Source: Nitrosarchaeum sp. | GTDB lineage: Archaea; Thermoproteota; Nitrososphaeria; Nitrososphaerales; Nitrosopumilaceae | Direction: 5' to 3' | Assembly: GCF_025699065.1 (NCBI RefSeq) | Contig: NZ_JAILWF010000001.1 | Location: 149,626 to 213,625 of the forward strand | Length of the DNA: 64,000 bases | Shown here: positions 41,870 through 43,284 of the stretch, in pieces | How the letters are laid out: each line of letters begins with the position of its first letter | Numbering within the stretch: position 1 is the first letter of the stretch | Made by a program: the position numbers and the translations under genes | Notes under the pieces: model-generated | Databases searched by the model: none | What the model saw: the letters and a program-made list of their open reading frames with translations, nothing else | Told to the model about the DNA's origin: nothing

Positions 41870-42085
41870 ATGAATAACGACGAATCAAAAATTTTTATAA
41901 CAAAATTCCCAAAAGAAGGGTTTAGTTTAATAGATCAGATCCAAGGAAGAGTGCAGTTTGCAATTTTAGATCAAATCAAACTTATGAAAACATCAGGCAT
42001 GGAAAATAATGAAATTAAAAAAATAATTTTAGATAATGTTCAAAAAACTATAGAAAATTATCAATTTGGAAAAAAATTAGATTAA
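41870..42085 (+). CDS. Hypothetical protein, 71 aa
   Basis: Short helical charged protein (IQGRVQFAILDQIKLMKTSG, then NEIKKIILDNVQKTIENY). No motif. Its 3' end precedes the RNA-like structure at 42171. Confidence 0.5.
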   Translation: MNNDESKIFITKFPKEGFSLIDQIQGRVQFAILDQIKLMKTSGMENNEIKKIILDNVQKTIENYQFGKKLD

Positions 42086-42170
42086 GTTTTAATTTCATAC
42101 AAAATCTAGTTAAAAAATAAACAAATGTAAAGAATTTTCATAATAGTATTTTTAATTCATTATGACACTA

Positions 42171-42271
42171 TTGGTATAGGTAGTAATCAAATAATACCAA
42201 ACATCAATGGTATGTCAAAAAGAGTGTTGATGCTCAGTTGTCAATGGATAACTGATTGGTTTTGATTACTA
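42171..42271. other. Candidate structured RNA: three-way junction with possible pseudoknot
   Basis: TAGTAATCAAA (42181-42191) pairs perfectly with TTTGATTACTA (42261-42271) over 11 bp. It encloses two hairpins: CATCAA/TTGATG (42202-42207/42227-42232) and TCAGTT/AACTGA (42234-42239/42250-42255). In addition TTGGTAT (42171-42177) pairs with ATACCAA (42194-42200), with the first outer strand in its loop, so a pseudoknot or a switch is possible. It lies between two convergent genes. Strand unknown. Confidence 0.5.
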
Positions 42272-42288
42272 TCTTATTTTTACCGTTT

Positions 42289-43284
42289 TTAGCGATATTC
42301 ATCCCCACAATCACCTATCAAATCAAAAAGATCATTAGATTTACTAGTCACAGAGCGTATCATAGTCAGATCATCATTCTCAAGAACAATATCAAAAACT
42401 CGTCCATTATCTTGCCGGTGCTCAGAGAGACCAAGTCTTGAGCCAATTATCACTCCGGCAACTCTAGGTTTATCTAAAATAAATTTTGTAGAAATATTTG
42501 CAATGCTTGAATCGTATTTTTTTGCTATTTTCGATAAAATTTGCAATAACTCTTGAAATAAACCCCATCCACCCCACGCATCAATCATGTTGTAATATTT
42601 TTGCAGGCTTGCGGTATTCAAATTGACTCTGCTAGGTTCTGGAGAATTCAGATATTTTTCAGATAAAAACCCACCAAGCAAAGTACCGTATGCAAGAATA
42701 GAAATATTGTGTTTTTGACAAAATGGGGTCATTAATTTTTCTGGTCTTTGATCTAAAATAGAATACTGTACCTGATTTGAAATTAATTTAAAACCACGGT
42801 TAGTCATTAGCTTGATTCGTTCTGTATCGAAATTTGTAAGACCAAGATGTTTGATCTTTCCCTCATGTTGTAATTTTGTTAAATTATCAAGAGCATCAAA
42901 ATAACTAGAATTATTGTAATCCCACCAATGAAATTGGATCAAATCAATTGTCTCAGTGTTCATTTTTTTTAATGATTGATCAATATAATATTCCACAATT
43001 GATTTACTCATAGGTCCAGGATTCGGAACAAATTTAGTCAATGCTTGTGATTGTTGCAAGTCTTTTGGCGGCAATTGTTTTCTAAATTCACCAATAAATG
43101 ATTCAGCGGGTCCGTAGATGTCAGCCAAATCCCAAGTAGTGAATCCATTCTTGTGATATTCAAGCATATCCAAAATTGCATCTTTTGGTTCAATATACCC
43201 ATGGACACCAGATACTTGCCACATTCCATTTAAAATTCGACAAATAGATAGATCATCTGCTAGTTCAATTTTTGGAATTCTCAA
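42289..43284 (-). CDS. Aldo/keto reductase
   Basis: This 331-residue TIM-barrel oxidoreductase has the catalytic set typical of AKRs: Asp and Tyr in DLADIYGPAE, Lys in ALTKFV and His in IQFHWWDY. The C-terminal GVIIGSRLGLSEH is the NADP-binding part. The family reduces aldehydes and ketones; the substrate is unknown. Its 3' end faces the structured segment at 42171-42271. Confidence 0.88.
   Translation of the reverse strand: MRIPKIELADDLSICRILNGMWQVSGVHGYIEPKDAILDMLEYHKNGFTTWDLADIYGPAESFIGEFRKQLPPKDLQQSQALTKFVPNPGPMSKSIVEYYIDQSLKKMNTETIDLIQFHWWDYNNSSYFDALDNLTKLQHEGKIKHLGLTNFDTERIKLMTNRGFKLISNQVQYSILDQRPEKLMTPFCQKHNISILAYGTLLGGFLSEKYLNSPEPSRVNLNTASLQKYYNMIDAWGGWGLFQELLQILSKIAKKYDSSIANISTKFILDKPRVAGVIIGSRLGLSEHRQDNGRVFDIVLENDDLTMIRSVTSKSNDLFDLIGDCGDEYR

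Follow-up and report, generated by a model that had tools for sequence, protein, structure and literature searches.

Several kinds of small structured RNA are known with which the locus reported here can be compared. Y RNAs and YrlA, which go with Ro60, are about 100 nt long and have paired ends, a variable interior and a U-tract. Autogenous leader RNAs, for example those of ribosomal-protein genes, are structured RNAs standing directly ahead of the start codon of an information-processing gene, and 6S RNA is a structured RNA of bacteria. Among guide RNAs, the H/ACA type carries an ACA box just behind its 3' stem and the C/D box type carries C and D boxes beside the RNA ends. Ammonia-oxidising archaea are among the most numerous marine organisms, and no regulatory RNA described for them was found in a literature search of partial coverage. 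From other marine archaea, the Thalassoarchaea of marine group II Euryarchaeota, an abundant structured ncRNA of 229 nt, Tan1, is described (PMC5069720).

The present locus lies in a window of 64,000 nucleotides, the whole stretch of Nitrosarchaeum DNA that was analysed, and is almost certainly, judging from its sequence and from that of its relatives, a free-standing structured RNA gene on the forward strand (Table 1). It looks like a member of an RNA family of ammonia-oxidising archaea that is missing from Rfam 15. With the families in that collection it shares the character of a small structured RNA gene, but it matches none of them at cut-off: the whole 64-kb window gave no match at the gathering cut-off, with a relaxed E-value the locus was matched best by RAGATH-30, on the opposite strand and with 17.6 bits where the cut-off is 59.5, and no Rfam 15 match to the RNA was found in the loci of 14 relatives. 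Y RNAs and YrlA are similar to it in size, paired ends, variable interior and U-tract, but its own genome has no match to the TROVE domain (PF05731), in a search whose control matched 1 of 14 known genomes. Tan1 is likewise a structured ncRNA of marine archaea but differs in size and in its euryarchaeal host (PMC5069720).

Copies of the family that precede tfb genes in other genomes (see below) are placed as autogenous leaders are, with binding putative, but other members of the family are free-standing genes whose promoter is of the same type. With 6S RNA it would have in common a structured RNA possibly acting on the transcription machinery, a likeness drawn from the tfb neighbourhood of other copies only and carrying no claim of homology. 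Both classes of guide RNA were rejected by eye: the sequence behind the closing stem, TTATTTTTACCG, is without an ACA box, and the ends of the RNA form that stem and carry no C or D boxes. No description of the RNA was found in the literature, of which subscription papers were covered in part, so that its absence from print is unproven; the accessible parts of PMC5069720, PMC2864571 and PMC3840354 do not describe it.

Fold and compensatory changes

The locus had been singled out in an earlier note, made from the letters of the window, for a perfect 11-bp stem enclosing two hairpins. That stem is present (42181-42191 with 42261-42271) and can be extended to a closing stem, P1, of 13 bp by G42180-U42272, its single G-U pair, and G42179-C42273. 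It does enclose two hairpins, P2 and P3, and together with a short inner stem, P1b, these form a three-way junction (Table 1).

Table 1. Features of the RNA gene and its flanking signals, in window coordinates.
Feature	Position	Strand	Remarks
ncRNA body	42179..42273	(+)	about 95 nt; sole match in its genome of covariance models R1, R2 and R3 at E <= 0.01
P1 closing stem, 5' strand	42179..42191	(+)	partner 42261-42273
P1 closing stem, 3' strand	42261..42273	(+)	partner 42179-42191
P1b inner stem, ACCAA/UUGGU	42196-42200 with 42256-42260	(+)	overlooked in the earlier note
P2 hairpin, CAUCAA/UUGAUG	42202..42232 (42202-42207/42227-42232)	(+)	loop variable
P3 hairpin, UCAGUUGUC-AAUG-GAUAACUGA	42234..42255 (42234-42242/42247-42255)	(+)	
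Upstream promoter box, TAAACAAATG	42118..42127	(+)	97% mean identity with 14 relatives
TATA-like element, TTTTTAATTCAT	42149..42160	(+)	21 nt behind the box; 90% mean identity with 14 relatives
T-rich tract	42274..42285	(+)	behind P1; probable terminator

The RNA folding energy of 42160-42285 was -35.6 kcal/mol, against -21.7 (sd 3.5) in 200 shuffles (z -4.0), one of which folded equally well; the reverse strand of the same stretch gave a z of -2.8.

Comparison with relatives upheld the three-way junction of P1, P2 and P3 through compensatory changes. In a plain sequence alignment of 17 sequences (A4), 95.2% of cells were paired and double changes occurred at 5 pairs; neither value was reached in any of 500 shuffles, and slid partners paired in 19-50%. 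A second alignment (A9), of 63 distinct rows from several subclasses, was taken from 65 chosen loci, includes the training rows of model R3 and was fitted to a model, which biases it toward the structure; it had 94.7% of cells paired, double changes at 19 of the 21 modelled pairs, and 116 double-change cells against a shuffle mean of 32 (slid controls, 22-53%). For 92 distinct sequences (A5), likewise aligned to a model and so with the structure favoured, the value was 88.6%, with two antisense matches (L008 minus and L014 plus) and some doubtful rows included in the count. By helix, changes on both sides were seen in A9 at 9 of the 10 modelled pairs of P1 (97.8% of cells paired), 6 of the 6 of P2 (88.6%) and 4 of the 5 of P3 (94.6%). 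The weakest helix is P1b, with 83.5% of cells paired in A4 and 71% in A5, and its partner is displaced in other subclasses, as read by eye. Uncompensated changes at paired positions, named in the earlier note as what would tell against the fold, were checked in all three alignments, and the structure passed.

The same note had drawn a 7-bp hairpin upstream (42171-42177/42194-42200) with one strand of the stem in its loop, and had seen in such mutually exclusive or pseudoknotted pairing a mark of riboswitches. The hairpin exists in the window, but only 1-5 of its 7 pairs are possible in 14 same-genus relatives (gaps scored as unpaired), whereas 12-13 of the 13 pairs of P1 form in all 14; one of its arms lies upstream of the putative transcription start. 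As the competing hairpin is not conserved in these orthologues, a switch or pseudoknot is unsupported, and a non-systematic look noticed no other alternative fold.

Promoter, terminator and genomic setting

Copies of the family have in common a bipartite promoter, TAAACAAATG followed after 20-21 nt by TTTTTATT, at a fixed distance from P1. When up to 3 mismatches are allowed, the box-plus-TATA pattern has a single occurrence in the genome under study (a backwards control gave none), and this is the promoter of the window RNA, with 1 mismatch. Allowing up to 3 mismatches to 18 fixed positions, it stands ahead of 106 of 113 copies, compared with 2 of 1295 control stretches, and 94 of the 96 copies found without the promoter search have at most 4 mismatches. 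The TATA start lies about 28-31 nt ahead of the first stem base (taken as model start plus 2) in 109 of the 111 copies with up to 4 mismatches. Since archaeal TATA boxes stand at a usual distance from the transcription start, the first base of P1, or one close to it, is inferred to be where transcription begins. A search for the promoter across 250 genomes of the taxonomic family counted 92 listed matches in 67 genomes, where the control gave 12; several of those in the genomes resemble chance or a recurring other site (e.g. L163-L166, L180, L181, L183, L184 and L186).

At the other end, TTTT occurs within 14 nt behind P1 in 89 of 115 copies, compared with 207 of 1583 control stretches. The sole terminator-like match of a sigma-70 scan was P3; the scan is unsuited to archaea, and its promoter matches were disregarded. 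L066, L067, L069 and L115 are excluded from the promoter and T-tract counts and from those of tfb placement below, and L064, which is cut off, is also excluded from the promoter count.

The upstream neighbour of the RNA is a 71-aa ORF on the forward strand that ends at 42085, and the downstream neighbour is an aldo/keto reductase ORF on the reverse strand that ends at 42289, confirming that the gap lies between convergent genes. The RNA has a single copy in its genome. A DNA search gave matches in 17 of 18 genomes of the genus, its own included, and in 21 of 61 genomes overall; the only same-genus genome without a match is 61% complete, and 2 of the 17 have other subclasses only. In all 15 same-genus orthologues (own included) the convergent aldo/keto reductase follows the RNA, and the upstream gene families are unchanged in 13 of the 14 with upstream sequence, while neighbour genes differ at copies of other subclasses. 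Mean identity between the window and 14 relatives is 92-98% in the stem regions and 74% in the P2 loop. Outside the RNA it is highest in the two promoter elements (Table 1); the sequence preceding the box and the spacer from box to TATA have 75-76%, the spacer from TATA to stem 54%, the sequence downstream of the RNA 42% and the neighbouring ORF 69%.

Extent of the family

Matches of three covariance models indicate that the window RNA is one copy of a multi-copy structured RNA family in Nitrosopumilus-type archaea. Model R1 was built from 17 sequences, the window's included, and R2 and R3 from 5 and 11 sequences of diverged copies, respectively, with the window's excluded; the window RNA is nevertheless the sole match of R2 (E 5e-7) and of R3 (E 5e-6) in its own genome. 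Among 250 genomes of the taxonomic family, R1 matched 64 at E <= 0.01, a set that includes the doubtful G266, and 20 of the 64 have 2-4 copies. The promoter pattern uncovered copies missed by R1, with different P1 sequences and the same architecture, and R2 and R3 matched 35 and 52 of the 250 genomes, respectively. Across many copies the sequence of P1 is largely conserved, while the interiors and the P2 loop vary.

The convincing matches are confined to one archaeal family. When R3 was run on 250 genomes sampled across the class, it matched 40, every one of which belongs to this family, and in an order-wide sample R1 matched 18 of 201 genomes at E <= 0.1. R1 matches outside the family or at its edge, namely G364 (L067, another family), G241 (L066), G070 (L069) and G266 (L115), were discounted as lacking the promoter by eye, so that 15 of the 18 in the order-wide sample were deemed convincing. 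In contigs of named genomes, 15 stretches matched a strict DNA pattern; their labels are Nitrosarchaeum, Nitrosopumilus, Nitrosopumilaceae or Nitrosopumilales, apart from one labelled only 'archaeon' and two, from one bin, labelled Nitrososphaeraceae. Under strict filters, and with many of the genomes incomplete, 186 of the 250 family genomes had no match to R1 and 198 none to R3; the family of RNAs is therefore either patchy or too diverged for the models. The covariance models can be used to annotate it in other genomes of ammonia-oxidising archaea.

Copies ahead of tfb genes

A TFB-like ORF lies near 20 of 117 distinct copies, in a stretch of up to 2.5 kb on each side. By alignment to one query TFB, 13 of the 117, from several subclasses, are followed by a same-strand tfb that starts 7-13 nt behind P1; the ATG behind P1 lies at 10-12 nt in ten of these, most of which have a T-tract in between, and at 22-28 nt in three. 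A fourteenth copy preceding tfb is L246. Among the TFB proteins of the 250 genomes, the ten closest to the query (whose own locus is included) all have the RNA directly ahead, as do 13 of the 30 TFB loci compared, three of which begin inside the gene. No RNA was found directly ahead of five same-genus relatives of this tfb (L250, L252, L253, L254 and L256), and in three same-genus genomes (G004, G010 and G015) the distance between this tfb and a copy is about 3.3 kb. The tfb-linked copies mostly look like one orthologous locus, in which case the independent events number fewer than 14. Most of the copies look free-standing, as 74 of the 117 have no same-strand ORF of at least 60 aa starting within 200 nt, in some cases owing to a contig end.

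Ammonia-oxidising archaea have many TFB copies per genome, as seen in a search for TFIIB repeats. The genome under study has 14 such matches, which points to about 7 tfb genes; none of the 7 of these 14 that were listed lies within 100 kb of the window RNA on its contig, and no TFB-like ORF was found within 1.5 kb on either side of it. In the window P1 is followed by a convergent gene and not, after about 12 nt, by a same-strand tfb start codon. The earlier preference for a stand-alone RNA over a leader thus holds for the window copy, and is strongly supported by compensatory structure, an own promoter, a T-tract and a conserved convergent locus, but 14 paralogous copies do sit at the position of a tfb leader. 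On the whole, the observation in that note was largely right and understated what is there.

At L173, an apparent broken tfb (a 63-aa ORF, with another TFB-like stretch later) begins 12 nt behind the RNA, which is perhaps how a leader copy turns free-standing. In G185, a copy (L101:5431) stands about 60 nt ahead of a same-strand 129-aa ORF, which we take to resemble a Fur-type regulator. TFIIB-repeat matches number 40 in G185 and 35 in G161, compared with 10-25 in the other 15 genomes searched.

Proposed mechanism and alternatives

Comparison between sequences shows the fold, the promoter, the T-tract and the position of other copies ahead of tfb, and a protein-binding RNA would be the most economical mechanism covering both the leader and the free-standing placement. 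We therefore propose, tentatively and as something quite possible rather than probable, that the RNA binds a protein regulator, in cis where copies precede tfb and in trans in the case of the free-standing window copy. The window RNA would be transcribed from its own promoter and ended at the T-tract, and its folded three-way junction would bind the regulator. Directly ahead of tfb, the regulator would act in cis on tfb expression, and free copies with the same kind of promoter would, by analogy, act in trans, most simply as decoys for the same protein. The link of the window copy itself to TFB is one that we infer. In a narrower form, which we regard as distinctly unlikely, the three-way junction would bind TFB itself, or TFB with RNA polymerase, so that leader copies autoregulate tfb and free copies titrate one class of TFB. 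If true, such a TFB-binding RNA would be an RNA-based control of archaeal transcription initiation and a functional counterpart of 6S RNA, of which we know of no example in archaea. Short RNA genes with a recognisable promoter and a covarying fold, standing partly ahead of tfb, offer a concrete and testable starting point.

The alternative that survives best, though on balance unlikely, is that of a trans-acting antisense sRNA, in which loops or opened P2 and P3 would pair with mRNAs and copies would have diverged toward different targets. A free-standing unit with its own promoter and T-tract, the presence of 2-4 copies in 20 of the 64 genomes with R1 matches, and a variable P2 loop and interior beside a constant P1 are all consistent with it, but the best-conserved parts are mainly helices and not an unpaired seed, and a leader placement ahead of tfb would be unexpected of such an RNA.

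It is less likely still that the RNA is part of a housekeeping RNP, whether similar to Y RNAs or of a novel kind, in which the end stem would bind protein, the interior would be variable and there would be no relation to tfb. The paired ends with a T-tract behind them, and a P1 largely kept in sequence around variable interiors, agree with this, but the Y RNA partner Ro60 has no TROVE counterpart in the genome and the occurrence within the taxonomic family is patchy.

A metabolite-sensing riboswitch preceding tfb, of which the window copy would be an orphan, is very unlikely. It would fit the three-way junction and the ten leader copies in which P1 is followed by ATG after 10-12 nt, in most cases with a T-tract between, but not the convergent gene that follows the window copy, the 74 copies without a downstream same-strand ORF, or the lack of conservation of the alternative hairpin.

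The weakest candidate is a DNA element, which could be a two-way terminator for the convergent genes, a palindrome bound by a protein, or a short transposon ending in inverted repeats: the P1 arms are an inverted repeat in a gap between convergent genes, but this is scarcely credible given a single copy in the genome, a conserved promoter outside the would-be repeats, covarying inner hairpins, a same-strand gene downstream at other copies, a blastn search of phage and plasmid collections without match and a strict P1 pattern without match in viral contigs. A mobile DNA element does not fit and is disfavoured; a MITE in particular was rejected on the one genome copy and on conserved sequence that reaches past the terminal inverted repeats. 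Peptide coding was judged by eye and set aside on account of the indels and stops that distinguish the subclasses.

Clustered and diverged copies

Three copies of different subclasses stand in tandem on one strand within about 2 kb in G122 (L111:3082, 3798 and 4948), and pairs or triples of copies a few kb apart also occur in L234, L235, L236, L237 and L238. At L234-L238 the copies are clustered in regions rich in small paralogous families, including TFB-like proteins, Lrp/AsnC ligand-binding proteins (Pfam), DUF6659 (Pfam, barely above cut-off), a UbiA-like protein (under the Pfam cut-off) and, by eye, a methyltransferase-like protein. Two contigs of G178 (L171 and L172) have near-identical copies whose promoter stretches are identical, possibly through a recent duplication or an effect of assembly. 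L167 and L168 (G028 and G155), which are among the matches listed for neither R1, R2 nor R3, are highly diverged copies that stand behind a promoter of the family's kind, with a P1 of AATAGCAGTT or GTAGCAGTT with ..GCTGCTATT and a P3 that is short or different.
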